In this document: positions 22,004 to 50,361 of the stretch, piece after piece
How positions within the stretch are numbered: the first letter of the stretch is position 1
Layout of the letters: every line of letters starts with the position of its first letter
Assembly (NCBI RefSeq): GCF_035083965.1
Contig: NC_089737.1
Coordinates: forward strand, 13,629,029 to 13,693,028
Length of the DNA: 64,000 bases
Direction: 5' to 3'
Source: Branchiostoma lanceolatum
Taxonomy: Eukaryota > Chordata > Leptocardii > Amphioxiformes > Branchiostomatidae
Notes under the pieces: generated by a model
Database searches by the model: none
Seen by the model: only the letters and a program-made list of their open reading frames with translations
What the model was told of the DNA's origin: nothing
Translations under genes and position numbers: made by a program

Positions 22004-22007
22004 TTTG

Positions 22008-23435
22008 CTGGAATAATAGAGTTTTATTTGTAAGTTCTTGCCCGAGGGCTTGTGATAGAAAAAGTATACAAAAAAAATTACGTCTGAAAACACACAAACT
22101 ATCTTCAATCAGTGCGCAGCCTGTTGGCAACATGATAGTATGTTCCTCAAATTTACAAGCAGGCAGAAGTTTTAGGCATACATTATTTTCGCAGCATGCT
22201 CTCTTTTTCGAGCGGTCACAAACCATCCTCACCACAAAACCACTGTCTCTAAACAAGAAGGTTTTATAAAACCTCCTTGCTCTAAAGTTACACACCTGGA
22301 CTTAACTTGCCTGGCTGAACACCTGGACTTGAAAGCAGAAACGGCAGAGGTCTTTGAAATCTTAGAATCCGATCTTTAGATTGTAAACATCTAAGCCACG
22401 ACACCGCCACGCACGCCACCAGTCGAACCGGAACTTCCGCCCTGGGCACGAGATTAGGTCAGGGGTCAAGGCTAAAGTTATCGACAGGATTTCTTTGAAA
22501 ACCTAATTTTCTCAAAATGTGTTACTTAACTAATGATACACATAGATATTGTTAGAGGTGCAGATAGAAAGTATGCTTTGAAGGTTTGTAATAGAACGAG
22601 TATAAAATAACAAAAACACCCCTTTGACTTGAGTGAAACAATTCGTACTCGATCCCAGGTCCTTATTTTGTACTTGACCCAAACAATGTCACTATTGACA
22701 CCTTAAGTGCCTTTCTTCAGTTCGTTTTGAACCATATTGTTTTCCGTTTTTCACTTGATCCTAGGAACATGTAAAAACTTCTTTATATCCTTGGAAAAGG
22801 CTGAAGTTCTTGTTCTAACCTTTGATCTCTGACCTATGACATTTTCTAGCATACCACAACAAACATTTGTTTCACACGCACACCCGACTCATTTGGGGCC
22901 TATTCACACCTTTCCAAAGGTCAGTATTTACATGTAGCTTGTTGGACTACATTACTCTTCGTTCGGCGTAAAAAATGTCCCTGATATACACCAGTTAACG
23001 TTTACCAAGGGAGTAAATGAGGGTACTGAGTTATGATATTATACTGTAATGGATATCACGTTATACCAAGCCCCAGAAAATACTAAGTTTTCTTGTCTCT
23101 TTCCTGTGTTCCATTTGATCGCCATAATAAGAGGGCCTTATTTGTGAGGTAGTAAATAAAATTTTATCAGCATCATATTTATTATGATATTGTAATAATA
23201 TTTGTTATATCAGATTGGCCAGATACTGTCTACGTTATCTGCTAAGTTATCTAATATATCATAAAGAAGGACAAACTTTATATTAGTCATGTATAAAGAC
23301 TGACATGTACTAGTAGTGATTCTATTGTTTTGAATGCTCATTATAATGTTTCATTGTAATAATCTATACTTGCTATACTATTACTAAGTATCCTTCATTG
23401 TGTAGTGACCTTTGACCTTACATATCTATCATCAG
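22008..23435. promoter_or_regulatory. head-to-head intergenic region of the zinc-finger and CUT-homeobox genes
   Basis: About 1.4 kb separates the two divergent coding starts, both of which sit directly after an acceptor site. Non-coding first exons of both genes and a shared or paired promoter should lie here. I see no clear TATA box or CpG-dense core by eye. The arrangement, not a motif, is the basis of the call. Confidence 0.45.
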
Positions 23436-26400: not shown

Positions 26401-28187
26401 TACAAAGTTATACTCGTAAGATATACAAATTTCTGTTTGTTTCTTGTGAACATAAAAATAGCTCCTCTATAAATACTGTTGTTGACATCTAACAACAATT
26501 TGATATGATCAAGCTATCCATACTTTGATATCACAATTATCTACCCGTTGTGCATTATGTAAATTAATTTTGTAATCAGAAATAACTGTTGTTCCAACAG
26601 CCCCATCAGAAAACCATACAGAGAACCAAGCAGCGCTGGAAGCAATCCTCACTCCTGAAGATTCCAAGATCCAAGATTCCTTAGCTTCTCAAGATGCTGA
26701 GGCACCTTCTTCTTCTACACATCCTCAAGACTCAATCACACGTACTAGTGAAGCTTACAAGATGTCTGAAGCAACGCCATTGGTCAACGATGCATCTGAA
26801 GACCCTACAGAAACAGCCTGCACCAATCACAACCAGCCTTTCTCACATTGCGTCAAACCACACAAAGTCGCATTAACACTTAAACAGATCCTCAAAGCGA
26901 ACAAGATCTCGTACCAAACGTTTGCGAGGAAGGTTTTGAAAAGAAGTCCGGGATCCCTCGCGGATCTGCTTAACTACCCGCTCGCCTGGCACAAGATGAG
27001 ACCACCCCGACAGAAGCTGTATAGGACCATGTGGGAGTGGATGGGTCCTGGTGTAGTTCATAAGAACATCAAGGAGTTGACAAAGCTCAGGAAAAATCAG
27101 GGTAGGTCTTATGTGTGAAGCTTTATGGAAGACAGACATAATGTGTCAAAAATATAGTCTCTACCACTGACTAGTAGACTGAAAAATAGTAAAATATAGT
27201 CAGATATAGTAATTTCCCAAGGGGAGTTTAGCTCCCATAGGTTATCTTTTGCCAATGGTTTCCCTTACCATATGGGGTCACTCTCCAGGCAAAGTATTCT
27301 CCCTATTTGGCTAGAATGAGTCGGTGTAGTTTATATTGAATCTATGTATTGTTATAGCATGATATGATGTTCAGGGCAATTATGTGAAATGTTCATATCA
27401 TTTATGACATGTAATTTTGTTCACAGCTTCAAAAGCAAAGAAGACAAAAAGAGCAACTGAGGGACTGCTGCAGGAGGAAGAGGAATTTTCATCAGCTGCA
27501 GAAACTAGTAGACTCACATCTGAACACACATCAGTCGAAACCACTCATTATGTAGTAGAACCTCAAGATGGTGATTCCATACCAACTGTCATCCAAACAG
27601 ATTCACAACCAGAATCATCTACACAGAGAAAAAGTACACCATGTGTGGTTACAGCCCTTGACTACACGGATATTGCTCAACTTATAAGACAGCTACGCAC
27701 AATTCTGCAGAAACATTATGTGTCCCAGCAGATTTTCGCAAGAAAGGTGCTCGGACGATCGCCTAGCACGTTTGCAGAATTGCTGAATTACCCAAGGCCA
27801 TGGTCAAAGTTGACACCAAGAAAGAAACAATTGTACACAGTTCTTCACCAGTGGATGGCATCACCAAATCTACAAAACAACATTGAGAGGCTGAAGGCTG
27901 AAGAGAACAAACAACGTGAGTTGGTTGGTTGGTTGGTTGGTTAGCTGGTTGGTTTGCTGGTTGGTTAGCTGGTTGGTTAGCTGGTTGGGTGTGGTTGGTT
28001 GGTTGGTTGGCTGGCTGGCTGGCTGGCTGGTTGGTTGGTTAGCTGGTGTTGGTTGGTTGGTTGGTTGGTTGGTTGGTTGGTTGGCTGGCTGGCTGGCTGG
28101 CTGGCTGGTTGGTTGGCTGGCTGGTTGGCTGCTAATTAATTGGTTGGTTGGCTCGTTGGTTAGTTTGTTTTTTAGTTGATTAATTGT

Positions 28188-33300: not shown

Positions 33301-36300
33301 TACTCCACGACCAACTCATCAATGACCTTCTTCCGCATGATCTCTACTGTGTGCTTCCAGGTGTTGTCCATGTCAGGGATGGAGTTGGGGTCATTGACCG
33401 CTTCCGCGTACTGTTTGATCATAATGCTGAGGGCCACACCTGAAAAAATCGTGTATGTATGATTGATAAATCAAACAGTCAGCACTTGAGACAGGCTTTT
33501 AACTTATTTATTTGTACGGTGGTTAATGCAGGGGTAAACTTCATTTTGTCATGAAGATAGAAGGGGAGAGGTGCTAACAGTTGTTAAACTCACCGCTAAC
33601 AGTTGAGCCTTTGTCGTAACCTCTCTTTGCACGTGACTTCAGCAACAGCCTCTTGGTGAGGTCTTCCACGCCCTTGTTGAATGCTGGATTCAGGCTGTCT
33701 GTCTTCTGAGCGATGTTGTTCATCACGTCCTTGTCCCCAGATGGCCGCTCCAAGATGGCGCACTCCACCGATGAGAAGAACAAAAGGATGGCCCGTCCTA
33801 CTTTGTCACTGGCTGACTGTTCAAACTCATTAGGATCAGGACTAAGGACCTGGGAGTAGAATTGATCGATCGTCAAAGTGTGATATAATTGATATGTTAG
33901 TTGTTCGGTATAGTAATCAAACCTTTCCTTTCATAGTGTCTTTAAACAAAACACATCTATTCTTATACCCATGTTTTGTCAGATCAGAGCACTGTCTTTC
34001 ATCTACATTCTTTGATGACAATGGTACCTCACTGCAGATGTCTTACCCTTTTCTTCAAATACTCAGTGGGGTCCATGTCTTTACCGTCCTTATCCTCCAT
34101 CTTCAGAGACACGTCACGCAGCAGCCACAGGAAGTCTGGGAAGAACTCGCGGAATTCTGCAACGTCTCTCCCCTCTCCCTTTCTCACTGTGATTCCCTTA
34201 GCCAGCTTGACGAAGCACCTGGCGGTATTTGAAAAAAAGGAGAGAGAAAAAACAGTGCTTCTATATACATATGTACAGTGATGTACCACATGACAAAATA
34301 TTGTACCGTAGTTAGAGAATAAGAAATTTCACTGAAACACAAGTCTGTATAATGGGAGGTTTCTGGTCATAAAGTTGTTTGTGTGAGCTGTATGGGTAAT
34401 CTACTTACTGCATCTTCTCCAGATCTCCCTTATGCGGCACATTGAGTGAGTTGTAGATGAGTTGGGAGGACAGCAGGATGGTCATCACCAGGATAGAGGC
34501 GTCCTGGCCAGCACTGGCACCTACTGCGTCTGAAGTCGTGTATTTAAACATTGAATATGAGTATCATCGCACATGGACCTGGAAATCCCAAGTCCAAAAC
34601 ATCGAGCACCGAGGCCTGTATCGGTACAAGCGGCTGATGTTTGGGATATCATCAGCTCCGGAGAAATACCAGCAATTGGTCAAAGAAGTACTCCGCGGAT
34701 GTGAGGGAGTCAAGAACATCGCAGACGACGTCATCGTCCACGGGAGAGGTGATGAAGAGCACGACAAGAGGCTACATCACGCGCTGGACAAGATACAGCA
34801 AGCCGGTTTAACGGTAAACCCTGGCAAGTGCCTGTTCCGAGTGCCAAAGCTAACGTTCTTCGGACACGTAGTGACTCCAGACGGTGTCAATCCGAGCGAG
34901 GAGAAGATAGCAGCCATCAGAGAGGCAGAAGCACCAAAGACGGTCGGAGAAGTAAGATCGTTCTTAGGCTTAGTCCATTACGTGGCCAAGTTCATACCTA
35001 ACCTCGCGACCATGACCGAGCCGTTGCAGAAGTTAACGCGCAAGGGAGTCGAGTTCAAGTGGAGCTCAGAGCAGCAGAAGAGTTTCGAGAAGCTGAAAGA
35101 GCTGATAACGAGTACGGAGACGTTGGCGTACTTCAGACCCACAGGGAAGACGCGCATCGTGGCAGACGCGTCGCCTGTAGGATTGGGAGCTGTGTTGCTG
35201 CAGCTACAAGACGAGAGGTGGCGAGTGATCGCGTATGCATCTCGACAACTGTCGGAAGTCGAGCGACGGTACAGCCAAACAGAGAAAGAAGCGTTGGCAC
35301 TTGTGTGGGCGTGCGAACGGTTTCATCTGTATACGTTTGGCCGGGAGTTCGAGTTGGAGACGGATCATCGTCCATTGGAACACATATACGCAACTAAGTC
35401 CAAGCCATCATTTCGCGTGGAAAGGTGGGTGCTGAGACTACAGGCTTACCCATATAAAGTCGTCTATCGTCCCGGAAAGACCAACATCGCTGACGCGCTA
35501 TCGCGGCTCAACAACAGCAAGTCAAGGGACAAGTCAAGTGAGAACTATGACTATGTCAGAAGCGTTGTGGAGGCGAGCACGCCAGTCAGTCTAACGCCAC
35601 GCGAGATAGAACGGGCATCGGGAGAAGACCCTGAGCTGAGACAGGTCAGGAGGTGTATCCAAACAGGACAGTGGGACGAATGTCAAGTGATGTCCTACCG
35701 TCATGTGAAGACAGAACTGAGCACATATGGGCAGCTCATACTACGCGGGACGAGAATCGTGATTCCGCAGGTTTTGAGGAAGACCGTCGTGCAGTTAGCG
35801 CACGAAGGGCACCAGGGCATCCAGAAAACGAAGAACCGACTGAGGACCAAGGTTTGGTGGCCCAAAATGGAAGCAGATGCAGAGGCAGTGTGCAAACGCT
35901 GTCACGGGTGCCAGGTAGTCAGCGAGCAGACACCGCCAGAACCAATGGCACGAGTAATGCCGCCAACAGGCGCATGGCAAGCCTGTGGAGCAGATCTGTT
36001 GGGACCGCTACCAACAGGGGAGACTGTCTTAGTCGTCGTGGATTACTACAGTCGCTTTTACGAGATTGCCATCATGAAGTCAACGTCAAGCCGAAAGGTC
36101 ATCGAAGCATTGGAGGTTATCTTCGCAAGATTTGGAAATCCATGCTCTCTACGTACTGACAACGGTCCACAGTTCGTTAGCGCAGAGTTCGCCGAGTTTC
36201 TACGAGAGCAAGGGATACAGCATCAACGAACAACGCCGCTGTGGCCGCAAGCCAACGGCGAAGTCGAGAGACAGAACCGTACACTGATGAAGGCGATCAA

Positions 36301-39300
36301 AGTGTCGAGAGTGGAAGGGAAAGACTGGAGGCGAGAGATTCTTAAACATATCCAAGCCTACAGGTCCACTCCGCAAGCAACTACGGGAGAAACTCCATAC
36401 AAGCTGATGTTTGGGAGAGAGATGAGATCTAAACTGCCAGAATTGCCAAGGGAACCAAAGCTGGTAAACGAAGAAGTGCGAGACCGAGACTTTGAGAGGA
36501 AAACCGCAGGGAAGGACTACGCTGATGCGAAAAGACAAGCGAAGGAAAGTAGTCTACAGCCGGGCGATCGTGTGTTGGTGAAGCAGGAGAAGAGAGACAA
36601 ATTCTCCACGCAATACGAAGCAACTCCATATGAAGTGATCGAACGAGACAGAGGGGAAGTCACAGTTCGTGACCCGGACGGGAAAGTGAAAAAGAGAAAC
36701 GTTTCCTTTATGAAGAAATACGTAGCGGAAGAGGCAGCGACAACGACAACGGGTGAAGAAACAACCTGTGAAGAAACTACGTGTGAGGAAATGTCAACAA
36801 CACCAGACAAGGAAGCAGAGACTGAAACAAAGACAGGCAGTTACGTAACGCGATCGGGGCGAGTGGTAAAACCGCCTGAGAGACTGAACTTATAATGAGT
36901 AGAAAAAACGAAGTAAACTCCACGATCCAGGAAAAGGATACGGACAATGAATACGGACAATGGACTGTCTAGTATAAATTTAAAGTTTGAAGCATAGTTG
37001 ATAATGCATGGAATTAACAAGTAGCAGTAATTGAGTAATGCATGAGTTTGATAGTCTATATACATTGTATAATGCATGTCTGAGGAAAGGAGGGATGTAG
37101 TGATGTGAAACATGTGATACTTTATATTGGCCACTCTAATCCTAGTAACTCTACACCGGATGCAGTCAAACCCTCCTACCAGATGTAGACGCAGTTGGCA
37201 ACAGAATACACTAGTGAGCAGACGTGCTTGTGTGTGTGTGCTCCTTGGGAAGCTTACAATCCCTAAAGCCAATTCAACAATGGGTTTCATCAAATGGTCT
37301 TTGGGCTTCCATACCTATAGGGTCTGTCAAAAAAGCTCTCTATACATTTGTATGTACCTTGTTCGTAGTATATTAGATTATTGTCCTGCGGTATTGTCTC
37401 CTCACACTCAAGAACTAATAGAAAGGATGGAGAATGTACAGAGGCGTGGAACCAAGTACACTCTCAATAATTCACTCGTACCATATTGTCAAATAGACGT
37501 GAAATACTAGATTTAGTTCATCTTTAAGTGCTTCTTAGGCTATTACGAAATAGACATCAACGATTACTTAACCTTTCCACACCCTTTCTTGAGAGATCAT
37601 TCTCTGGACAAATTGACCCTAATAAGATGTCATACAACGACCTCTAAGCACTCTATTTTCTCGAGAATTGTCCAAATAGGGAATACCCTCCCAGCATAAA
37701 TCAGACACCTCAGGCTAATTCCAGACTCATCAATCAAATGCTGTAAGCAAACATTACCTTTTTCTTCTGACCACACATTTCGACGTTCATGCTCATGGAT
37801 TAACTGTTGCATGGACAGTATGTTGATTTTGTACTTATGTCCTACTCAGAGACCATTCCTTTATTCAAGGTTACTGTAATAGGTACTGTTATCTGCACGT
37901 TTTTGCCCTGTTGTTATTCATTTATGTATTTTGTGCGGGGAGACAACTGGTACAAGTAGAGGGGATTTCGATCACCTGTTAACACTCTAGACTAGTTCTG
38001 AACAATACCACGTACCAATTCCTTCAGTGTCCAGTAGCACGATAGTGAAGTCCTTCCCCCGCATCACCTTGGTGCCCATCCAGATGCCAAACGTCTGGGG
38101 GTCCATGCGATGGCCAAGCTCGAATGCATCATTCGAACCCAGCAACCTAGAACACCGATGGTATTAAAAAGTATTTTTTGCCTGGTAAAGTCTTGCTATC
38201 GTAATTCACCTTCACCCTTCCTCTATTCAAACATCATAAAAAATCTAACAACCTAGCATCATTTTAAAATCCGCATGCCAAAGCAGATGCGTGTAGCGTC
38301 ATGTTTTTTTTTTGACGAGGATCAATTTTCATAGAGAACACAAATAAAATTTGTTAAATGGTACGTGAAGTTGATAAGTGAATTGACTTACAGATCATTG
38401 TAAAACCACTTATCAGCCGTTTTTACTTTTGTAAGATGGTCTGAGGTCAGAGGATGAAAATGAAAGTCAACGCGCCATTTTGATTTTCAAAGTGACGTCA
38501 GTTCATTAATATTCGGAGGTTCAGTCTTCTGGTTGGATAACACTTCGATTGTTGGGCATGGCTTTGTGATGTTGTACATATCACTATTAGTATCAAGTAG
38601 ATTAGTCCGGAATGGAGGAATAGTTTTAAAAAATACATTATCTTGTCCTGTTGAAATGGTTGGTTTACTACTAAACAAAAGGACTAAAATTATACATTTG
38701 TTCATCACGTTTGTCCGTGCCATTGTGGGTATCTACACTTTGATTAATGTTGGGAACAATGGGTTGCATTGCGTGTACTACGGAATTACAGTTCCCATGG
38801 TGTTTTTGCACCCATGGGGACCGAATCGTTTCTGCAATTGACGTCAGCAGTGTAGCCATAGCAATGTTTCGCCAATTTGTTCTGCAGGCTTTAACAATAA
38901 CAACGACTCGTAGACTATTTTTCTAGTGTGATCTTTAATGTTAAGGCTGATGAATTTCGAATTCAATGATACCATAAGGAGACCATAAGTCAAGTTAACT
39001 TAACTTAACTTAACTTACAACAAAAGTTGAATTACAGGGTAGAAATAAAAACATGTCCACCTCTTCCTTCCTTCTAAAACAGATAAAGCAATATCGCATG
39101 TGTGCATTCGGCCTTTACTGAAGAATGTTTGCACCAGATGACTACCAGCAAAAAAAGTTAAAATGGGAAATGACCATGTGTAGCAAGAAGAACTTTACGA
39201 CAAAATACTAGTTACACCAGTGATTTTGCTACCATATGCATGGCATCGTCAAATGTATCCTGGTCAATTTGTCCTAGAATTTAGTAAGTCTGACATTTCA

Positions 39301-39752
39301 TATTAAATGTGATATTACCTGGATAGGATGTAGCTTTTCCCACTCCGACAGGGGCCGCAGATTGAGATGACACTCACGGGCTCCTCTATCCCCTCCAGTA
39401 GGTCCAGGGCCTCGGGAACGATCCGCAGGCTCCCCCGGCGGACGCCCTGCACCTTCTCGACTTTACCAGTGGACACGTTGTACTTCAGATCGTTCGGTAG
39501 AATGAGTGGGATGGAGGAACCCAGGACGGCATCCCCACCTCCTTTCGGCTTCAGCTCCTCGACTTTAAACCCAAACTTGGAATGTAGCCCCGATATGTTT
39601 GCAGGAGAGGATGCATGTGACCCCGACATGTCTGAACGAGGCGATCTCTTGCGAATTGAAAAGCGACTGCGAGCATCCTGAAACCGAGCCTTAAACTCTT
39701 CTTCCTCCAAGCACTCTTCATGATAACGTCCGGTTGCTCCACTTTTAGCCAT
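30344..39752 (-). CDS. guanylate-binding-protein-like large GTPase
   Basis: Thirteen minus-strand exons: 39752-39319, 38146-38016, 34529-34409, 34218-34047, 33849-33594, 33439-33285, 33074-33010, 32427-32264, 31894-31726, 31579-31396, 31158-31000, 30829-30734, 30505-30344. Phases agree throughout and give about 755 residues. The GTPase domain begins after a roughly 125-residue Ser/Arg-rich leader unlike classical GBPs. G1 is GPCRSGKS (133-140), the switch I region has DPQTFGIWMG, G3 is DTEG (184-187), and the guanine-contact LLRD is at 261-264, the GBP/atlastin form of G4. The helical GBP middle domain follows. Residues about 618-735 are charged coiled coil. The end is Pro-rich with no CAAX box, so prenyl anchoring is not expected. 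GBPs self-assemble in interferon-type defence against intracellular microbes in vertebrates, and a defence role here is inference. Intron 2 holds an antisense gypsy element. Confidence 0.9.
32535..32750 (+). repeat. ATCTCCAT-hairpin dispersed repeat, copy 1
   Basis: It starts with ATTATCTCCATGAAAAATGG, has a (TG)-rich segment and CAGCATAACTCAAGAACCTC, then TAATGATATTTGGCATGTGG, and ends in GATTTTGGGCCCCCTGGTAT. The same order of blocks occurs at four other places in this window. It lies in intron 7 of the GBP-like gene. Confidence 0.8.
34605..36895 (+). CDS. gypsy-type pol fragment: partial RT, RNase H, integrase
   Basis: About 760 residues of open frame belong to the element. The frame happens to stay open upstream to 34457 through antisense GBP exon 3, but that part is not element protein. 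In order: the RT palm from the LMFG..SAP motif, with the catalytic box reading IADD where most elements have Y-x-D-D; RNase H with its four acidic residues (in VADAS, EKEA, ETDH and ADAL); an integrase zinc finger (HEGH...CKRCHGC); the DDE core (ADLLGP, TDNGPQF, NGEVERQ); and a C-terminal integrase domain ending in a Thr/Glu-rich tail. Because the N-terminal part of RT is missing, this copy cannot be autonomous. The lack of stops over 2.3 kb suggests a recent insertion. Confidence 0.92.
34605..37100 (+). mobile_element. 5'-truncated Ty3/gypsy-type LTR retrotransposon
   Basis: The element lies in intron 2 of the GBP-like gene, opposite to its transcription. Its left edge cuts into the reverse transcriptase, so gag, protease and the start of RT are absent. 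Coding sequence is open to 36895. A purine-rich tract (37081-37094, GAGGAAAGGAGGGA), followed by TGTAGTGATG, is a plausible polypurine tract and start of a 3' LTR. The LTR end is not resolved. No 5' LTR was found. The left junction is about 75 bases from the splice acceptor of GBP exon 3, which stays intact. Confidence 0.9.
37335..37650 (+). pseudogene. remnant of non-LTR retrotransposon reverse transcriptase
   Basis: A degenerate frame reads roughly SILDYCPAVLSPHTQELIER followed by MENVQRRGTKYTLN, the pattern of the C-terminal thumb region of LINE-type reverse transcriptases. Stops and frame changes follow. It lies in intron 2 of the GBP-like gene, downstream of the gypsy element. Confidence 0.65.
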
Positions 39753-39759
39753 AGCTGAG

Positions 39760-41110
39760 ACAGGGAACGCCAACGGTCTCGGTTTGTATAGTGACTGTCC
39801 CAAAGAGATTTTCAGCGACGTCCTCACTGCATGGACGCTTTTACCTTTGTGAGACTGTATCAAAGCAGTTGATGAAAGTGAAAGTTGATTTGGTACATCA
39901 CGTCAGTCATTTGCATACGAAGTTTCGGTCGTCTCGGGGTTTGAGCTTGTGTTAGTCAACATATCGCCATTGATTGTTTTCATTAAAAGCAATAATGACC
40001 CCTCTTTTGAAATTCGCTGGTTATAGCCTTTTTGATTCGTCAGAAGGGTTGCTAATCGAGAGATTCGGCAGTCTGCGGCTAGTGGTCGGGATGGTTGGGA
40101 GTAAGTTAGAAAGCATCTGGGCTCAGTCAAGGGTGGTTAGGACATATGGTCGTCCCAAAAATATAGGCGTGGCCTAAAACTGGTCGGACTGCTCCCGACC
40201 ATCCGGCAACTTTGGTCGGTTACTGTGGTGGGCAAGTTCCGCTATGCGTAACCGGGGCTTAACAGGGGCTTTAAATAGTTGTTGAACTCCATATTCTGGT
40301 TCCGCCACTGACGACAGACGGCAGATAATGCTTGAAACGTCTGACCATAATATTTGTCGTGGCTTTTGACGTATACGGATATGTGTTTTCCCCAGAAATG
40401 TTGATTTTGTGTATTCAAACTTCAAAGTGATCATACTTATATACCTGTTCTCCATTGTGTTTGTTATTATTGTTCACGGGAGACCAGCGCATCACCATCT
40501 TGCATCCTAAGCACGTCGAATGATGTTGGGGATGATGATCGTTCACAAGTACAATCGGTTGTGTCTTCAAACATATTCTAGGTATAGGATATTCTTGACC
40601 ATGCGTGACAGTTGTCTAAGTTGTATGTGACACATGTAACAGATGGAGCAAGTGAGTTCTGTCCCAGGGGGAAACTTGTATCCCAAAGGGAGCGTGACAA
40701 AAATACTCCACACATCTGTCACATGCCATCAGGTACTCACTTTATAATGCACAATTTGAATACATATAGAGAAAGGTAATATACATGCTTGAACAAGATC
40801 ACATCCACAGGAAAATACAAGAACCAAATTGATATAACAACATGCGAACTCGGTGAAGGTATTCATTTTCTTTGGTGGAGAGAGGATTTCCGTATGTGCC
40901 ATGTTGCCCGCTTCTCTATTCAATAAATTTTACCTCTTTTCTCGTTTTGCGTCCGATGGTTCTACAGTGAATGACGAAACAGAATTGCATTGAAGCATAA
41001 TTTTCTCTTAAGAATTTATCTTTTAAACATCTGACATTTCTAATGCGTTTTGAGAAGGAAAACCTAATATTCTTCCAACAGGCCTAGAAAGACATGCTTA
41101 GAAAGATATA
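39760..41110. other. intergenic: 5' flank of the GBP-like gene
   Basis: It separates the GBP-like gene from the palindromic receptor region. The short open frames lack coding character, and no repeat family recognised elsewhere in the window is evident. Confidence 0.4.
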
Positions 41111-41437: not shown

Positions 41438-41734
41438 TCATTCAGAAGGCAATTTTACCAAAACATATCTGTACATTACAAGCCAAGAATGCCCCCATCT
41501 GTCTACAATTATTACTTGCTCAAAATTAGCAATTTTTCTCTAAATTCTTCTGTAAATATTGTGGCAAATGCTTGAGTGTTCATTGTTCATTAGAGCCAAG
41601 GAGTAACGTTAACGTTTTAGGTCTTTCTCATTATCAAGCTCTATATGGCCTACGCCATGTTGGGTTATGTACAGTGCTGTTTACTAGTAATCATACCCAC
41701 ACGACGGAAGAAGACCTTGATCCACCCTAGTTTG

Positions 41735-43972
41735 CTATTCTGGAGAATTGTCTGTTTCTGGAAATGTTACATAAACATCGTCTGAAATGTCATCATCGTC
41801 AGATGCCCTGTCCTCTAAAGGTTCTCTGCTTGCGCTATGGGCGCTTCTCACTTTCATATCATTGTCATAATGTCCTTCTTCTTCTACACTACATGAACTT
41901 TCGACTGTTTGGTCATCGCACTTGTTTCTTGTTCTATTGGGGAGGTGCCCAACCCTCCTGTGTTTATCAATGTCAAAATGTGCAACGTTTTGGATACCGG
42001 CCTTGGATACTTCATCCATTGATGGAACAGATTCAATTTCTGGGATTGTCTCGTATCCATGGTGACGAAAATCTTCATTTTTATATTGGCCTTCCATTGC
42101 TGAGTTTGCAGCAGAAGATTGGTCTGCGTTTTCATGTCGTTCTCCCGTAGTTGTGCCTATATCAGAGAACTGGTCATCATTTTCATAAAACTGGTCATTA
42201 TTTTCATAAAACTGGTCATTATTTTCATAATGTCCTCTTGTGGTTTTGCCTGTGCCAGAAAACTGGTCATTATCGTTATAATGACCTTCTCTAGTTCTGT
42301 CTGTATCAGAAAACTGGTCATCATTTTCGTAAAACTGGTCATTATTTTCATAATGCCCTTCCCTATTTCTGTCTTTATCATAACATTGGTCAATATTTTC
42401 ATAATGCCCTTCCATATTTCTGTCTTTAGCAGAAAACTGGTCATTATTTTCATAAAACTGGTCATCATTTTCATACAACTGTTCATCATTTTCATATTGT
42501 CCTTCTCTGGTGGTGTCAGCATCAGAGGGTTGGTCATCATTTTTATTGCTCCTTGCAGTATTGCCATGAGCCTCTCTTTGCTTATGTCTGACTAAATCTA
42601 TATCATACTTTCTGACACAGAAAACAACAGCCATGACAAAAGCACAGCCCATACCGATTACTGATCCTATGAGCATGTTGACGAGAAGCCCCTTTGTTGA
42701 TAGGCCAGGATTCTGACTTCCAAGGAGTATTAGAAATGTTCCGTTGTCGCGTGTGGGGACAATCGAGTTTTCTGGTATTGTGTTGTTTTCTTCCATTGTT
42801 CCACTTGAGGGTGTAACACGTAATTCAGCACCAAGGACAGTAAGTAAAGCGGATGCTTGTGCACTTCGTGTGTGATTGGCTGCCACTGTACAAGTATATA
42901 CGCCGGATGCGTTATCATCAGCCACAACAACCTCCAAAACTGAGCAACACACCTTTTTTAACTCCAATCTTACCAGAGACGAACCTTTACACGACGTATT
43001 GCTTGCACGAGTGTAGTTTTTAAAGTACACGTAACTTGGTGGTGTGTCCTCACCGTTTGGTAGAGTCCAGGAGAAAGTCAAATCTTCCTCACAATTTGCT
43101 TGGCAGTTGAGAGAAATGCTCTCTCCAACATGAACACTCTGATTATAGGGCACAACCACAACCTCAGGCGAATCGCAAACCAGGTTTTTCTGAGGGATTC
43201 TCCACAGACTCATTTGCCCAGTGTCATCAGAGATGCACGGGATTTCCCAGTTACCCAGAGCATTTTTCATAACCCACAGCTTGACTTCGTTCAGCCTGCA
43301 GTCACAGCGAATTTTGTTTCCTGCCAGTTTGATGTGAAAATTTCTCTTCAGGCCAATTACATCTCGGTTCAATACGGTTGTGATCATATTATTACACAGG
43401 TTGAGCTTGCGGATGTTTTTCAGGAACCCGATTTTGGGAGGGATTCGAGAAAGACAGTTACCCTCCAGGTCAACGATAAACAAATTGTCTAGTCCAACGA
43501 AAACACTTTCATCGACGGAATGGATCCGGTTTCGTTGTAGACGCAAGCTTTTAAGCTGACTCATCCCCTTGAATGTCCCAGCTTCCAACTTTGTAAGTTT
43601 GTTATAACTGATATCAAGAAAGGATGTGCTGGACATGGCTTCGAAAGACCTTCCTTCTATGCTCACTATATTGCTTGTAGACATCCGTAAAACACGTAAC
43701 TGCGTCAGGGAGGGGAAGTCCCCAATCCTGATGGTTGTGTTTATTTGTGACTGGATTATCAGGGTTTTTGCAGCTGATAGAACAGGTGTTGGAAAATGAT
43801 GAAGAAATTCGCTGGCTGAACAGTAGAGTTGAAATGGCGGATCGCCCGTGCATGAACACTGGGTCTGCACAGGGCACGTCTCGGATCTGTTACAAGTTAC
43901 TGACACACCACATGTTATAATCAGTACAAAAAAAAAAAAAAAAGCACTTTTTTTACACGTTGGCTTTGCCAT
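41735..43972 (-). CDS. single-exon LRR-Ig transmembrane receptor A with multi-YEN cytoplasmic tail
   Basis: An intronless 745-residue type I membrane protein. Order: signal peptide with a Phe run (residues 11-15) encoded by a homopolymer; LRR N-cap (about 33-52); about five LRRs (about 90-210); LRR C-cap (CDCRL...C, about 222-266); one Ig-like domain (about 280-378, CQANC...YTCTV); stalk; one membrane span (about 429-453); and a 290-residue acidic tail. The tail holds nine Tyr-Glu-Asn motifs, mostly as YENDDQF/YENNDQF heptads, plus YKN, YDN and a C-terminal YVTF. Tyr-x-Asn is the classical Grb2-type SH2 recognition pattern. Amphioxus is known for many LRR-Ig proteins thought to act in recognition or adhesion, and ligand and signalling here are inference. 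Receptor B is its inverted duplicate. Confidence 0.95.
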   Translation of the reverse strand: MAKPTCKKSAFFFFFVLIITCGVSVTCNRSETCPVQTQCSCTGDPPFQLYCSASEFLHHFPTPVLSAAKTLIIQSQINTTIRIGDFPSLTQLRVLRMSTSNIVSIEGRSFEAMSSTSFLDISYNKLTKLEAGTFKGMSQLKSLRLQRNRIHSVDESVFVGLDNLFIVDLEGNCLSRIPPKIGFLKNIRKLNLCNNMITTVLNRDVIGLKRNFHIKLAGNKIRCDCRLNEVKLWVMKNALGNWEIPCISDDTGQMSLWRIPQKNLVCDSPEVVVVPYNQSVHVGESISLNCQANCEEDLTFSWTLPNGEDTPPSYVYFKNYTRASNTSCKGSSLVRLELKKVCCSVLEVVVADDNASGVYTCTVAANHTRSAQASALLTVLGAELRVTPSSGTMEENNTIPENSIVPTRDNGTFLILLGSQNPGLSTKGLLVNMLIGSVIGMGCAFVMAVVFCVRKYDIDLVRHKQREAHGNTARSNKNDDQPSDADTTREGQYENDEQLYENDDQFYENNDQFSAKDRNMEGHYENIDQCYDKDRNREGHYENNDQFYENDDQFSDTDRTREGHYNDNDQFSGTGKTTRGHYENNDQFYENNDQFYENDDQFSDIGTTTGERHENADQSSAANSAMEGQYKNEDFRHHGYETIPEIESVPSMDEVSKAGIQNVAHFDIDKHRRVGHLPNRTRNKCDDQTVESSCSVEEEGHYDNDMKVRSAHSASREPLEDRASDDDDISDDVYVTFPETDNSPE

Positions 43973-44784
43973 GTTTTAGAACTTTGCCCCTCTTTCTTAC
44001 TTACTTTCTTGAAAATAAGATTACAGAGAGGAATGAAAACAGATGTCCCAAATCGAGGCTAAATCATGGCGAGTCACACATGGGTTTTTGTTTTTGTTTC
44101 GTATAGTCGCCTTTAGGAGTTACAGTAACACACCAGTTATCTGTATCTGTATAGCCGGTATAACCGCCCTTCGGAGTAACACGCCAGCTTCGCAGGCACG
44201 CGGTGCGGCAGCAGCTGGTTTATAGTACACTGAACCTGACACACCTAATTAATCTTTGCACATCTAGCCCCAAGCGTTGTTCAAAGCTATCCAGTCCCTA
44301 CTGTAATTGGTGATAACGAATCACACTCTACGATAGTTCTAGGAAAATCAATCTCAGGTTTGTAACTCTGGTACTGGCTATTTCTTGTTCTTTCTTTGAG
44401 CTGGTATTAGATAGTAGGTACGTCCTCCGTTTTGTCTAGTTAGTTCAGCTCACAAAGAATAAATAAAGTGAAAGTTTAGTCTGTGACGATTTGAAAATAT
44501 CTGTTGCACGTTGAAAAATTAAGCCTACTCCTACAGGTACTTCACCTCTCTTGCTGTTGTCTTCTAGGTGATGATATCCGCAATGACGCCTCCAGGAGTA
44601 GATATACAAGGGCACGACCCGCTCCGAACCCTTTTCGACCTTCTCTTCGGTTCAGTGAAAGATGCCGTTTGAAGACCGTTGTTTATTTGCTACGAGATGC
44701 TGTCTCTCTGTAGCCTTATCTTCACCTAGTAATTGTATCTAGTACCTGCATGGAGTCCAGGTCTAACCAGTAGTACAGTACTCA

Positions 44785-45100
44785 AGCAAAACAACTCGAG
44801 AACATCCAGCGCCGGGCATGCCGCACAATTCTAGGTCAACATTACATCTCTTACTCAGAAGCCTGTACTCAACTCAACCTCCCCACACTGGAGTACAGAC
44901 GAGAACAGCTACAGGAAGTTTAAAGGCGCGGACTTTTAAACTCTACCGCCTACCGGGATTGGCTCCCCTTGCCTCGTGGAGAGATCAGCGGACGCCAGAC
45001 CAGAACATGCAACAACCTGGACACAATCTTTGGTTTTCATAATAGCTGTATCCCATATATCGTCAGACTGTTAAATCCCTCGCTCTACTAGACAATAAGC
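44785..45100 (+). pseudogene. LINE reverse-transcriptase C-terminal fragment
   Basis: The frame reads LENIQRRACRTILGQHYISY and continues with a TLEYRREQL motif, the familiar end of many non-LTR reverse transcriptases. It then hits a stop, and the rest is broken. There is no 5' part. Confidence 0.75.
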
Positions 45101-45244
45101 GCACCTGCATATGAATGCAGTCTGTACTCTGTGACCTTCGTCCGAGTTCTTCTCAGTACGTTTAGCACGATCACACCTAGTGCAATAGTAGCTTTCAACT
45201 AACTTAGATTTTTAAATGTAAACGTATATTTAACTACACTTATA

Positions 45245-45580
45245 TTATTATCTCCATGAAAAAATACTTTTTCATGGGGATATTGTTTTGCATGCGTTTG
45301 TGTGTGTGTTATCCTGTGTGTATGTTTGTGTCACCGGACGCTTAAAATCAGCATAACTGAAGAACGTGTGGATGGATTGTAATGATATTTGGTATGTGGG
45401 TAGGTGCTGGAAGGAGAAAGGTCAAGGTCAATTTTGGGCCCCCTGGTATGTGTCACTGGAACTGCAATGGCGTATTTGTAAAAAATTTCCAACGAGAATA
45501 ACTGAAGACAGGAACGACAGATTTTCATGTTATTTGGTATGCAGGTGGGTTGGACAGAGATGTACAAACTGAAGTGCTAA
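45245..45580 (+). repeat. ATCTCCAT-hairpin dispersed repeat, copy 2
   Basis: Same block order as the 32.5 kb copy: ATTATCTCCATGAAAAA with an inverted ATGGGGATAT, a TG-rich stretch, CAGCATAACTGAAGAACGTG, TAATGATATTTGGTATGTGG and TTTTGGGCCCCCTGGTATGT. It then adds a second AATAACTGAAGA...TTATTTGGTATGCAGG block. Confidence 0.75.
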
Positions 45581-46482
45581 TTATGCAAATTTGGACCAAA
45601 TTTGCATAAGTAATGAGGATTATCTACTCCTCCATTGTGGGTATGTGCTTTGAGGTCGCATCTGTCGAATCTGTTGGTCTCTTATCTAGGACAAGGGCCT
45701 CATTTGCATAATTTATACATAAACTTGTATTTTCCTTGCTGAAAAAGCTACGGATGTCATATTTCAGATGTAGGTACCTTTAGAGAAGGTGAATACACCT
45801 GTCATTAAAATATACTAATGCTGACCTCATTTGCATAATCTAGGTATAACCTTGTATTTCCCTTACTACAAAGGCTACGGATTTCATACTTGACATGTAG
45901 GTACCTCTAGGAAAGGTCAGAAAACCTGACCATAAATTATGCTAATAAGGGGTGTATGCATAATGTATCCATATCCCTTACCATAAAAAGGTACGGATGA
46001 TATTTTTCAGATGTAGGTACCTGATTAGGAAATGTGAACACACATGACCATACATTATGCTTATGCAGACCTCGTTTGCATAATCTATGCAGAAACTTCA
46101 GAATTCCCTTACACTACAGTAAATGCTAAGGTCGTCATATTTGAGGTGTAGGTAATGGGAGGGGAATATCCTGCATTTTTCCGAAAATGTTGCCTTTCTA
46201 GTTTCTACTACGTGGATACCCTCTACACATAAAACAAAACAACCAGCGGCAACAACAGATACAACATGTAACTAGGGCAAATAAAACACATCATATATAA
46301 AAACAAATTTCATGAAGATTTTGGGTCTTCGGACTCTTGTTTATATATGTATCAGTATTGCGTAATGTTAACGTGCTTACTGCATTATTTGTTGTGATGT
46401 CCGTTCGTCAATCCAGCCATATACTGGTATATGGCTGCAAGCTGTTGGACAAGTGACAATTTTGACAATAAACCATTATTAA

Positions 46483-46640
46483 ATCCCTATAGCTCAACTG
46501 GTAGCAGCCTCAAAATTGAGCTCCTGATTCCAATTAGTTCATAACTGGGAGACTCCGGTTCAATCCTGGGCCGGACATCTCGATTGGGGTTGCACTCGTC
46601 TTTTGGCAGGGACTTACATGAAAATGGGGGTCCCGTGTTC
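46483..46640 (+). mobile_element. tRNA-derived SINE, copy 1
   Basis: The head has an A-box-like TAGCTCAACTGG and, about 65 bases on, a B-box-like GGTTCAATCC, as in RNA polymerase III promoters of tRNA-derived SINEs. A shared body (CGATTGGGGTTGCACTCGTC, TTTTGGCAGGGAC) follows. Inverted copies lie at about 47360-47505 and 58690-58892. Confidence 0.7.
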
Positions 46641-47359
46641 AAGGAGCTGTCTCAAGCACGTCAAAGGGGAAGGACTAGCAACCCCTCCCTGTGAAAAAAT
46701 ATACCCTGCTACTGAAACAGCAAGGAAACTTGCTTCCCTGTGTGTCACGTTGCACTACATGGGTCTGAACGAATGGATACTTGTCTGGTAATTGTCTGGT
46801 GTGCTCAGGATATTTTTTTGAATTAAATATACTGACATCCGTGTACGGGATGTGAACCACGTGGCAAGTGCCCCTGTTTTCGACCTCGGGCATATAACTG
46901 GGTGTTGTTTTGTAAGGACTGTTCCAAAGTAAGTGGGGGTCCGTTTGAGACAATTAAAAGAAATAAATGATATCTAAAGATGATAAAAACATAAATCTGA
47001 CTAAAAATGTCATTTAGTTCTAGTAACTGTGGCTTGAACAGACCCCCTGTTTGGATCAGTGCTTACAGAACTACACCCAATTATATGTCTGATGCTCGAG
47101 GTCAAAGACGGGCACAGGTAGTCATTCACGTGGGTTACATCCTCTACACGGATGTCAGTTACGTTACATTAATAAAACATATTTTAAAGATAATACAGTG
47201 AATTGAGCACACCAGACAACTGTTGGTACTCGTTCGTTCAGTCTCTTGTAGTGCCTTGTGACACAGGGCAGCAATTCTAGTGGCAGGGTATATTTCTACA
47301 GGGAGTGGTTGCTAGTCCTCCTCTTTAGTGTGCTGGATGCAGCTTCTCGAACACTGGAC

Positions 47360-47505
47360 CACCATTTTACGTCCCTGCCGAAAGACGGGTGCAGCCCCAA
47401 CCGAGACGCTCTGACCAAGTTGAGCCGCAGTCTCACAGGTAGCAATTGATTGGAACCAGAAGCTCGATTGTGAGGCTGCTCCCATGGTGTTGAGCTACGG
47501 GGACT
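47360..47505 (-). mobile_element. tRNA-derived SINE, copy 2
   Basis: Reverse complement of copy 1, with matching A-box region (GTAGCTCAAC near 47493) and the TTTCGGCAGGGACGTAAAATGG body. It is the palindrome partner of 46483-46640, so it predates the duplication. Confidence 0.65.
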
Positions 47506-48042
47506 TCCCAATTAGTAGATGAAGTTAGGACTTCAGAAAGAGAGCATCTTGTGGCAAATAAACAACGGTCTTCAGAAACGACACATTTCGCTGAACAGAA
47601 GAGAAGGTCGAGCAGGGTTCGGTTGCGCTCTTTCATATCTACTCCTGGAGGCGTCATTGCGGATATCATCACCTTGAAGACAACAGCAAGAGAGGTGAAG
47701 TACATGTAGGAGTAGGCCAGCATAAAGGCAGGACTTTATTATTCAACGTGCAACAGAGATTCTCAAATCTTCATTGACTAAACACTTTATTCATTCATTG
47801 TGAGTTGAGTTTAAGTGACAAAAATGGTAGACGTACCATCTATCTAATACCAGCTCCGGTTATACCGACCATATAAATACACGTATCAACTGGTGAGTTA
47901 CTGTAAAATACACCTATGACGGTGGTTTTCCGACTATGCTGAACAAACAAAAACCCATGCATATGATTTAGCTCCGAATTTGCTACACCCGTTTTCAGAC
48001 CTTTCTGAAATCTCATTTCAAAAGAAGGCCAAATTCTGAAAC

Positions 48043-50361
48043 ATGGCAAACTTGACGTGTACAAAGATGCTTTGTTTTGTACTGATCATTTCATCTGTCG
48101 GGTCAGTTGCTTCTAACAGACCCGGGACCTGTCCTGAACTGACCCAGTGTTCATGTATGGGCGATCCGCCATTTCAACTCTACTGTACGGCAAGTGGATT
48201 TCTCCATTATTTTCCAACACACGTTCTATCAGCTGTATCAACCCTGATAATCCAGTCACCGAAAAACACAATTATCACGACTGGCGACTTCCCCTCTCTG
48301 ACGCAGTTGAAACTTCTACAGATGTCTCGAAGCAATATAGTGAGCATAGAAGGAAGGTCTTTCGAAGCCTTATCTAGTACGACCATTCTTGACATCAGTA
48401 ATAACAAACTCAGAAAACTGGAAGCTGGGACATTCAGTGGGATGCACCGGCTGAAAATACTGCGTTTACAGCAAAACCAGATCCATTCCGTCGATGAAAA
48501 TGTTTTTCTTGGCCTAGACAATTTGGTTATCGTTGACCTGGAGGGTAACTGTCTTTCTCGTATCCCTCCCAAAATCGGGTTCCTGAAAAACATCCGCAAT
48601 CTCAACTTGTGGAACAACATGATCACAACCGTATCGAGCGAAGATGCGATCGGCCTGAAGAGAGTTTTTCATTTCAAACTGGCAGGAAATAATATTCAAT
48701 GTGACTGCAGGCTGTACGAAGTGAAGCTGTGGGTTATGAAAAATGCTCTGAGTAACTGGGACATCCCGTGCATTTCCGATGACACTGGCCAAATGAGTCT
48801 AGGGAGGATCTCTCCGAAGAACCTGGTTTGCGATTCGCCCGAGGTTGTGGTTGTCCCCCGTAATCAGACTGTTCATGTTGGAGAGAAAGTGTCTCTCAAC
48901 TGCCAGGCAAATTGTGAGGAAGATTTGATTTTCTCCTGGACTCTACCGAACGGTGAGGACAGACCACCAAGTTACGTGTACTTTAAAAATTACACTCGTG
49001 CAAGCAATACGTCGTGTAAAGGTTCGTCTCTGGTAAGATTTGAGATTAAGAAGATGTGCTGCTCAGTTTTGGAGGTTGTTATAGCTGATAAAAACGCAGC
49101 GGGCGTATACACTTGTACAGTGGCAGCCAACCACACAAGAAGTGCACAGGCATCTACTGTACTGACTGTCCTTGGTGCTGAATTACGTGTTAAACCCTCA
49201 TGTGATACAGTGCAAGAAAACAACACTTTTCCAGTAAAGAAAAATATGAAAGTTCAAGATAATATTACAACAAGCAAGAATAGAATAGCTTTAGTGCTTC
49301 TCGGAAGTCTTGATCCTGGCCTGTCATCACAAGGTTTAATCTTTGATATACTCATAGGATTAGTAATTGGTTGGTGCTGTTGTTTCTGCATGACTGTTGT
49401 GTTTTGTGTAAGAAAGCATGTGGTCAGAGATAAGCAAGGGGATGCACAGGACAATGCTGCAAGGCAAAATTATAATGACAACCAATCCTCTGGTGAAGAC
49501 AGAACTGGAAAAGGACATTATGAAAATGATGACCAGTTTTATGAAAATGATGATCAGTTCTCCGGTACAGAGAGAGATATGGAAAGACCTTGTGAAAATA
49601 ATGATCAGTGTTCGGATGAGCACAAAGATGGAGAAGGACATTATGAAAATAATGACCAGTTTTACGAAAATGATGACCAGTTCTCTGGTACAGGCAGAAG
49701 TAGAGAAGGGTATTATAATGATGATGACCAGTTTTCTGGTACGGGACAAACTACGAGAGCACATTGTTATGAAAATGATGACCAGTTTTATGAAAATGAT
49801 GACCAGTTTTATGAAAATGATGACCAGTTTTATGAAAATGATGACCAGTTTTATGAAAATGATGACCAGAACTCTGATATAGGCACAGCTCCGGAAGAAC
49901 GACATAAAAATGCAAGCCAATATTCCTCTTCAAACTCAGCAATGGAAGGTCAATATGAAAATCACGATTTGCGTTACCATGGATACGAGACAATCCCAGG
50001 CAACAATGAATCTGTTCTATCAACGAATGAAGTCTCCAAGGCCGGTATCCAAAACGTTGCACATTTTGACAATGACAAACACAGGAGGTTTGGTCACCTC
50101 ACCAATAGAACAAGAAACAAGTGCGATAACCAAAAAAATGACAATTCATGTAATATACAAGAAGGACATTATGACAATGATAAGAAAGTGAGGAGAGCTC
50201 ATGGTGCAAGCAGAGCAACAACAGAGGACAGGGCATCCGACGATGACTACATTTCAGACGATGTTTATGTAACATTTCCAGAAACAGACAATTCCCGAGA
50301 ACAGCAAACTAGGTTGGGACAAGGACATCTTTCTTGTGGGTATGATGACACTGTTATGTAG
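48043..50361 (+). CDS. single-exon LRR-Ig transmembrane receptor B with multi-YEN cytoplasmic tail
   Basis: An intronless 772-residue paralogue of receptor A, divergently transcribed. It has the same layout: signal peptide (no Phe run), LRR N-cap, about five LRRs, LRR C-cap, one Ig-like domain, one membrane span, long acidic tail. The tail has ten YEN motifs. Five form an uninterrupted YENDDQ array encoded by 21-base units at 49768-49872 (four identical, the last varied), which suggests slippage or conversion at DNA level. YETIP, YDND and YVTF motifs near the end are shared with A. The ectodomain is strongly conserved between the copies while repeat number differs, so the tail is the fast-changing part. 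Long antisense frames over the repeats are artefacts. Confidence 0.95.
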   Translation: MANLTCTKMLCFVLIISSVGSVASNRPGTCPELTQCSCMGDPPFQLYCTASGFLHYFPTHVLSAVSTLIIQSPKNTIITTGDFPSLTQLKLLQMSRSNIVSIEGRSFEALSSTTILDISNNKLRKLEAGTFSGMHRLKILRLQQNQIHSVDENVFLGLDNLVIVDLEGNCLSRIPPKIGFLKNIRNLNLWNNMITTVSSEDAIGLKRVFHFKLAGNNIQCDCRLYEVKLWVMKNALSNWDIPCISDDTGQMSLGRISPKNLVCDSPEVVVVPRNQTVHVGEKVSLNCQANCEEDLIFSWTLPNGEDRPPSYVYFKNYTRASNTSCKGSSLVRFEIKKMCCSVLEVVIADKNAAGVYTCTVAANHTRSAQASTVLTVLGAELRVKPSCDTVQENNTFPVKKNMKVQDNITTSKNRIALVLLGSLDPGLSSQGLIFDILIGLVIGWCCCFCMTVVFCVRKHVVRDKQGDAQDNAARQNYNDNQSSGEDRTGKGHYENDDQFYENDDQFSGTERDMERPCENNDQCSDEHKDGEGHYENNDQFYENDDQFSGTGRSREGYYNDDDQFSGTGQTTRAHCYENDDQFYENDDQFYENDDQFYENDDQFYENDDQNSDIGTAPEERHKNASQYSSSNSAMEGQYENHDLRYHGYETIPGNNESVLSTNEVSKAGIQNVAHFDNDKHRRFGHLTNRTRNKCDNQKNDNSCNIQEGHYDNDKKVRRAHGASRATTEDRASDDDYISDDVYVTFPETDNSREQQTRLGQGHLSCGYDDTVM

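Follow-up and report, generated by a model that had tools for sequence, protein, structure and literature searches.

What is a receptor doing with a tail built of repeated Tyr-Glu-Asn (YEN) motifs? This question is raised by two genes, here called A and B, in a stretch of 64,000 nucleotides from the lancelet Branchiostoma lanceolatum (NC_089737.1, positions 13,629,029 to 13,693,028; "the window", to which all coordinates below refer). Both genes are predicted to encode transmembrane (TM) receptors with leucine-rich repeats (LRRs) and an immunoglobulin (Ig) domain, and in both the tail contains an array in which the heptad YENDDQF, or a relative of it, recurs. We give close to an even chance to the reading that the two tails are built-in multivalent phosphotyrosine scaffolds for Grb2-type Src homology 2 (SH2) domains, acting in a manner similar to the membrane adaptors LAT and LAX.

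The open frames containing the receptors (41735-43975, minus strand, A; 48040-50361, plus strand, B) each comprise a complete receptor and are uninterrupted from the signal peptide through the tail. The two genes are arranged head-to-head as an inverted pair, and each is apparently single-exon and intact. Domain order is the same in both: signal peptide, LRRs, one Ig domain, one TM helix and an acidic tail with a net charge of -45 (A) or -43 (B); the Pfam families LRR_8, I-set and ig all scored above cut-off in A and in B. The pair thus has the signal peptide, LRRs, Ig domain and single TM segment of LRR-Ig transmembrane receptors. Paired LRR-Ig receptors are what a preliminary description of this DNA had claimed on the basis of the letters alone, and the coordinates it gave were correct, the coding regions proper being 41735-43972 (minus) and 48043-50361 (plus). 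Beyond a hydrophobic N-terminus, each protein shows only one hydrophobic peak, at about residues 428-455, with basic residues after it. Because this segment and the basic residues separate the tail from the signal peptide, the tail is placed inside the cell; A and B would have type I topology by the usual rule, and it is as a rule-based inference that the cytoplasmic location proposed earlier is supported. The repeats continue the receptor frame, and splicing, though possible, need not be assumed for the predicted proteins. On the opposite strand, the array is covered by open reading frames at 42104-42595 (plus) and 49360-49929 (minus), which we discount as a side effect of the repeat codons, because the receptor frame is the one that runs on into the LRR and Ig domains. 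The features of the two genes are:

41735..43972, minus strand: coding region of gene A, 745 amino acids (aa), LRR-Ig-TM receptor (one open reading frame; Pfam, hydropathy and A/B comparison)
43178..43888, minus strand: LRR region of A with cysteine-containing flanks, aa 29-265 (Pfam LRR_8, E 8.6e-23; bounds rounded by eye)
42833..43177, minus strand: Ig domain of A, aa 266-380 (Pfam I-set, E 3.3e-06, aa 268-378)
42614..42691, minus strand: predicted TM segment of A, aa 428-453 (Kyte-Doolittle peak 2.42, then basic residues)
42086..42547, minus strand: tail array of A, 17-residue units with tandem heptad blocks of 3, 2 and 3 (repeat analysis, unit alignment)
41738..42085, minus strand: C-terminal tail of A with YKN, YETIP, YDND and YVTF sites (sequence inspection)
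48043..50361, plus strand: coding region of gene B, 772 aa, LRR-Ig-TM receptor (one open reading frame; Pfam, hydropathy and A/B comparison)
48118..48828, plus strand: LRR region of B, aa 26-262 (Pfam LRR_8, E 6.1e-32; bounds rounded by eye)
48829..49173, plus strand: Ig domain of B, aa 263-377 (Pfam I-set, E 1.1e-05, above cut-off; Ig_3, 2.9e-06, below cut-off)
49333..49407, plus strand: predicted TM segment of B, aa 431-455 (Kyte-Doolittle peak 2.57)
49468..49953, plus strand: tail array of B, 17-residue units with tandem heptad blocks of 2, 2 and 5 (repeat analysis, unit alignment)
49768..49902, plus strand: the block of five in B, YENDDQF/N heptads plus linker (the heptads being 4.9 perfect 21-base copies, 49767-49869)
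49954..50358, plus strand: C-terminal tail of B with YEN, YETIP, YDND and YVTF sites (end 19 aa longer than in A)

The tails contain nine YEN motifs in A and ten in B, exactly as first described, and 11 and 12 YxN sites, respectively. The accompanying statement that these are mostly YENDDQF heptads holds for B, where seven of ten are exact, but not for A, where three of nine are exact and seven of nine fit the looser form YEN[D/N]DQ[F/L/N]. When the residues of each tail were shuffled 10,000 times, YxN occurred on average 1.45 times (maximum 7) in A and 2.16 times (maximum 9) in B; such shuffles keep the composition of the tail and randomise the order, and for repeats they rule out a composition effect only, so that sequence constraint (below) tests the pattern better. 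The first 430 residues of each protein contain seven tyrosines and no YxN.

The heptad is embedded in a 51-base (17-residue) unit, consisting of the heptad and a 10-residue linker such as SDTDRTREGH. Seven of these units pair in order between A and B, and by this alignment the 17-residue unit, in the same register in both genes, is the older repeat. Additional heptads are placed within every second unit (3/2/3 in A, 2/2/5 in B), and it is for this reason that Tandem Repeats Finder reports a 123-base period in both genes, corresponding to 17 + 17 + 7 codons. The nearly identical 21-base unit ascribed to B is perfect in its last block only (49767-49869, 4.9 copies, 100%). Because of these perfect copies, and because its first four heptads are identical at the DNA level, this block was probably expanded or homogenised after the separation of A and B. 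At the block-3 doublet, A and B have identical protein sequences and differ by one silent change among 42 bases. Taken together, the array has the near-identical in-frame repeats and the unlike copy number of A and B that mark a coding minisatellite, and instability of repeat length is plausible, since copy number differs between the paralogues and the last block of B is perfect.

As to what the motif could bind, Asn at +2, the ligand determinant of Grb2-family SH2 domains, is present at 11 sites in A and 12 in B. Binding of pYxN by these domains is described in PMC6669380, and Asn+2 is presented as the dominant determinant of Grb2 SH2 recognition (PMC10065799), with a predicted worth of two to three orders of magnitude of affinity (PMC12521615). 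LAT likewise has YEN at Tyr226, within the sequence PDYENL and amid acidic residues (PMC5089863), and the earlier assignment of Tyr-x-Asn to the Grb2-type docking pattern agrees with all of this. For the kinases, a strong preference of ZAP-70 for Asp at -1, with exclusion of basic residues, and a preference of Lck and c-Src for Ile, Leu or Val at that position are reported (PMC5089863, PMC5889215). In the tandem blocks the -1 residue is His, Gln or Cys for the first heptad and Phe or Leu for those that follow, which is perfect for none of the preferences compared but nearer to the Src family than to ZAP-70. Consecutive heptads place their tyrosines seven residues apart, about 24 angstroms if extended by our own estimate, and one SH2 domain per tyrosine probably cannot fit. 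Because this spacing is short for two SH2 domains, it may be the count of blocks, and not of heptads, that determines working valency.

Two other classes of tyrosine-based receptor were considered and rejected. The consensus of the immunoreceptor tyrosine-based inhibitory motif (ITIM), [ILVS]xYxx[ILV], is unmatched in both tails, its sole match lying at residue 121 of A in the LRR region. The corresponding activation motif (ITAM) consists of two YxxL/I sites, 6-8 residues apart, and the Yxx[LIVMF] sites of the tails (residues 524, 640 and 734 of A; 648 and 742 of B) are too widely spaced for it.

Constraint within the repeat was measured in seven units per gene (14 in total), which were delimited by eye and paired in order between A and B. 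From each tandem block this set takes the last heptad alone, the others having no linker, and an eighth unit (YKNEDFR / YENHDLR), which has neither the repeat linker nor the Gln, was left out. The ratio of nonsynonymous to synonymous differences per site (pN/pS) was 0.37 in the heptad and a neutral-looking 1.02 in the linker; leaving out one unit at a time gave ranges of 0.33-0.40 and 0.96-1.12, and the ten inner units alone gave 0.31 and 1.00. When 7 columns were picked from the 17 in every possible way, 218 of 19,448 picks were equally extreme. A simulation without selection predicted 36.6 changes in the heptad, where 27 were seen (P 0.0005), and 65.5 in the linker, where 68 were seen; it assumed a star tree and a consensus ancestor, and its P value overstates independence.

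Among the 14 units, Gln6 is kept in 14, Asn3 and Asp5 in 12 each, and Tyr1 and Glu2 in nine each. Gln6 is constant despite codon change (CAG in nine units, CAA in five); the left-out eighth units carry Phe and Leu at this position. A longer list of 24 heptads, with Gln in 24/24, was discarded because the search pattern had itself fixed Gln at position 6 and, in most cases, Asn at position 3. The first unit has Asn in place of Tyr in both genes. In 9 of the 11 gap-free columns with a YxN tyrosine, both genes carry it, compared with 3 of 9 for other tail tyrosines (Fisher test, one-sided 0.040, two-sided 0.065). From these comparisons, the heptad is preserved as a peptide, with Y and N preserved where heptads stand in tandem, which does not in itself amount to selection on Y and N, and on the evidence here the repeat seems to be more than an inert minisatellite.

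Several observations weigh against the docking reading. The main one, directed against the tails being docking sites and nothing else, is that the constraint on the peptide appears to lie mainly in the DDQF half (pN/pS 0.24), with a weakly constrained YEN half (0.83 in the 14 units, 0.73 in the ten inner ones), and that the heptad value climbs to 0.52 without the Gln column. The YEN value is, however, uncertain, because pN is alike in both halves (0.24 and 0.23, both below the 0.38 of the linker) and the difference comes down to few synonymous changes (pS 0.29 in YEN). Tyr is missing in five of the 14 units and YxN is kept in seven, and the seven A/B counterpart pairs alone give a weaker contrast (heptad 0.31, linker 0.59). 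In favour of docking, YxN is kept in 17/17 heptads of the tandem blocks compared with 1/6 single units (three per gene, between or after blocks), but the tandem heptads derive in part from recent copying among themselves and do not represent 17 independent events, and the classes were assigned by hand, the single count becoming 3/10 if the first and eighth units (YKN, YEN) are included. Over the tail as a whole, A and B share tyrosines in 12 of 20 columns, as against 5 of 9 in the ectodomain. Furthermore, Lck is reported to be weaker than c-Src on highly acidic sites (PMC5089863, PMC5889215), and the -1 Phe of the array differs from the Ile, Leu or Val that both kinases seem to favour most. 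For the multivalent docking platform suggested at the outset, motif, topology and site number are thus in its favour; the DDQF-centred constraint and the loss of some tyrosines in both genes are not.

If the tails nevertheless are Grb2-type scaffolds, the LRR-Ig ectodomain would, judging from its family, bind a ligand or a neighbouring cell, and a Src-like kinase could phosphorylate the tyrosines amid acidic residues once receptors are clustered. The conserved DDQF half may then serve as kinase context for the next tyrosine in tandem heptads, a proposal that joins the DDQF-centred constraint with the docking reading. Each pYEN is predicted, from its sequence determinant, to dock a Grb2-family SH2 domain, and with 11-12 nominal sites in three tandem blocks plus singles, a single tail could carry several Grb2-SOS-like complexes and link receptors into clusters, in the way of LAT and its three sites. 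In such a tail, the number of heptads per block might raise local phosphorylation and the chance of rebinding, and the conserved number of blocks might set simultaneous occupancy. This split agrees with the units being in register between A and B while heptad number drifts.

A further extension is that each gene encodes a receptor with its own expandable LAT, in which ligand binding and a high-valency Grb2 scaffold are joined in one polypeptide, the inherited copy number of unstable 21-base repeats tunes the clustering threshold, and simultaneous occupancy and rebinding are controlled separately, by the block number, which is kept, and by the heptads per block, which vary. We regard this combined proposal as doubtful.

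The best surviving of the other explanations, although an unlikely one, is that the array is a coding minisatellite spread by slippage in a length-tolerant disordered tail, with YEN copied along and having no signalling role. The perfect 21-base copies in B, the difference in copy number between the genes at two of the three blocks, the neutral ratio of the linkers and the weak constraint on the YEN columns taken alone (0.83) would all be expected from it. Against it, the heptad as a whole lies clearly below the linker of the same units in pN/pS, the block-3 doublet has been retained across a synonymous divergence (dS) of 0.33, and Gln is kept in 14/14 units through synonymous changes, in units chosen by eye and with Phe and Leu in the two eighth units left out.

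Somewhat less probable again is a phosphotyrosine tail whose main partner is not of the Grb2 type. Here, another SH2 protein or the kinase itself would read Y-E-N-D-D-Q-F, and the C-terminal YETIP, YDND and YVTF sites, which are identical in A and B, would confer signal specificity, for instance by recruiting a phosphatase or through YxxF-type endocytosis. The strongest constraint, at +3 to +6 (DDQF, 0.24), lies outside the Grb2 determinant, and a lancelet LRR receptor is described as pairing with SHIP1 via ITIM or ITIM-like tyrosines (PMC8211107), but neither tail has an ITIM consensus, and Asn+2, present at 11 sites in A and 12 in B, typifies ligands of the Grb2 family.

Least probable is a phosphorylation-free repeat, in which a low-complexity spacer of acidic and aromatic character would self-associate or be a binding site for cytoskeletal or adaptor proteins, perhaps in an adhesion protein: the best-kept columns are Q, D and N, not Y, neuronal LRR-Ig adhesion proteins (SALM/LRFN, NGL, AMIGO, LINGO) have a similar ectodomain and the top Foldseek matches of the low-confidence ectodomain model are the LRR-Ig structures of SALM2, SALM5, NGL-1 and AMIGO-1, but the tail charges should work against self-association, Y and N are both kept in all tandem heptads, and an adhesion ectodomain is compatible with a phosphotyrosine tail.

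The fold likeness to the LRR-Ig adhesion group is a lead only. In the model of the B ectodomain the mean predicted local distance difference test (pLDDT) score was 49.7 (75 of the 356 residues scored 70-90, and none exceeded 90), and the top 15 Foldseek rows had query TM-scores of at most 0.43 and identities of 15-21%. Full-length B, modelled from a two-row alignment, was poor (mean pLDDT 36.3), and nothing on the tail was drawn from it. At the sequence level, the best solved chains were the IGF acid labile subunit (2.2e-41) and LRIG1 (4.8e-30), with LGR4 also present among the best 60 of 313 chains with E ≤ 0.01; these LRR matches are generic. Matches of the B tail alone to the PDB (24 distinct sequences, E ≤ 1) were dismissed as composition matches, the best (0.041) being an E-N-D-rich repeat in a cyclic nucleotide-gated (CNG) channel and the other 23, at 0.12 or above, major histocompatibility complex (MHC) class I chains. 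Pfam searches with each tail alone gave 0 families at E ≤ 0.1. A scan of prokaryotic contigs with protein B gave 10 stretches with the peptide pattern, none confirmed by tblastn, and a scan of viral contigs gave no pattern match; collections of these kinds say little about such a protein.

Turning to the history of the pair, A and B are 75% identical across the alignment, with a dS of 0.33, a nonsynonymous divergence (dN) of 0.14 and a ratio of 0.43. By region, dN/dS is 0.56 in the signal peptide, 0.33 in the LRRs, 0.36 in the Ig domain, 0.53 in the stalk and 0.38 in the TM segment; in the tail it is 0.83 before the array, 0.42 in the array and 0.63 in the C-terminal part. From these values, both genes look like old duplicates under constraint. 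The inverted duplication, whose longest arms span 1168 bases at 86% complementarity, includes upstream sequence, where the two sides agree at 79% over 358 aligned columns and about 40 consecutive bases are identical. Two upstream arms stand out:

44523..44619, minus strand: upstream arm of the inverted duplication on the A side (93% complementarity to 47621-47717; about 40 bases in a row are identical)
47621..47717, plus strand: upstream arm on the B side, pairing with 44523..44619

These arms are closer to each other than the synonymous sites of A and B, and a shared regulatory element or gene conversion is possible. Gene A also differs from B at both ends. Its signal peptide (43900-43972, minus) is partly encoded by a run of 16 T (FFFFF), a run absent from B and prone to frameshift or assembly error. 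At the other end, A stops at TAG where B has CAG for Gln (compared over 41675-41737 and 50300-50361); the sequence past the stop is still similar to the last 19 residues of B, and A has probably lost its C-terminus, one tyrosine included.

Elsewhere in the window, a 914-residue frame at 9658-12402 (minus) without a Pfam match at E 0.001 contains PPVPPRRK and five YxN sites and is possibly another signalling tail or scaffold. A C2H2 zinc-finger frame at 18881-22108 (minus) has internal tandem repeats of 57, 72, 168 and 192 bases, and four adjoining frames at 23961-27944 (plus), with one CUT domain each, make up a small local group of exons or genes of this type. The frame at 34457-36895 (plus) is a retrotransposon pol frame with matches to reverse transcriptase, RNase H, integrase zinc-binding and integrase core domains. 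Finally, the C-terminal end of a frame at 39315-39902 (minus) is similar to the start of the guanylate-binding protein domain, scoring 20.6 bits, just under the Pfam cut-off of 21.1.

How do A and B compare with described systems? In the order of LRRs followed by Ig in the ectodomain they are like LRIG1, SALM/LRFN, NGL/LRRC4, AMIGO and LINGO, and we know of no YEN-array tail in LRIG1, SALM, NGL, AMIGO or LINGO proteins. The closest described lancelet proteins that we found are BbLcLRR and FrLRR of Branchiostoma belcheri. BbLcLRR is also a transmembrane LRR receptor, and several of its tail tyrosines are reported to be phosphorylated by Lck in cells; it differs in its length of 699 aa, in its domains, for which the description from SMART names LRRs, WSC and TM and no Ig, and in its ITIM or ITIM-like sequences DDYATV, HDYSEV and HDYDDP, which go with an inhibitory, SHIP1-associated function (PMC8211107). 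FrLRR, a lancelet LRR receptor that acts in phagocytosis via Grb2, is unlike A and B in having a predicted glycosylphosphatidylinositol (GPI) anchor and no cytoplasmic tail; its Grb2 link is unexplained, and its authors propose a mediator such as a co-receptor (PMC10199209). For this mediator, a YEN-array receptor is a candidate of the right kind. The string YEN has zero occurrences in the main text of the BbLcLRR (PMC8211107) and FrLRR (PMC10199209) papers. YENDDQ gave no match in the open-licence PMC literature, a scope outside which subscription papers mostly fall, and among the papers listed for broader queries there, as judged by titles and the starts of abstracts, none concerned a lancelet receptor with a YEN array. 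A 2008 survey of the lancelet immune repertoire reportedly found a large LRR-Ig set. A and B have a putative immune role.

For valency governed by repeat number, the EPIYA-C segment of CagA offers a precedent, being a tandem-duplicated phosphotyrosine segment for SH2 docking whose copy number is reported to shift SHP2 binding more than hundredfold; as a bacterial effector with another motif and another partner, it is a precedent for this point only and implies no relationship (PMC4623810).

By analogy of function, the closest counterpart is the group of LAT, LAB (NTAL) and LAX, whose membrane-anchored tails have several YxN sites that bind Grb2 once phosphorylated. These adaptors have a very short ectodomain without ligand-binding domains, and their YxN sites are not a tandem repeat. 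A and B likewise have several YxN sites in the predicted cytoplasmic tail, but with an LRR-Ig ectodomain of about 400 residues, a higher valence and a number of sites changeable by repeat expansion; because of this recognition ectodomain, which LAT, LAB and LAX lack, we do not count A and B as members of the group, though they may work in a LAT-like way. LAX is described as having five Grb2 motifs among ten tyrosines and LAT three, the YEN at Tyr226 being one of the latter (PMC3291652, PMC5089863), and theory predicts gel-like aggregates of LAT with Grb2-SOS-Grb2 when LAT is trivalent but not when it is bivalent (PMC3291652); a nominal valence of 11-12 would be far above this threshold.

Signalling in T cells and mast cells relies centrally on multivalent pYxN scaffolds, whose ability to condense into large clusters depends, in theory, on valency. 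The component parts of A and B are of known kinds and their combination looks new. If the scaffold reading is true, an invertebrate chordate has fused such a scaffold to a recognition receptor, with about four times the nominal valence of LAT in a repeat changeable in copy number, and the pair would offer both a simple system for how valency sets signalling thresholds and a possible tail for those lancelet LRR receptors that have none and whose link to Grb2 is unexplained.

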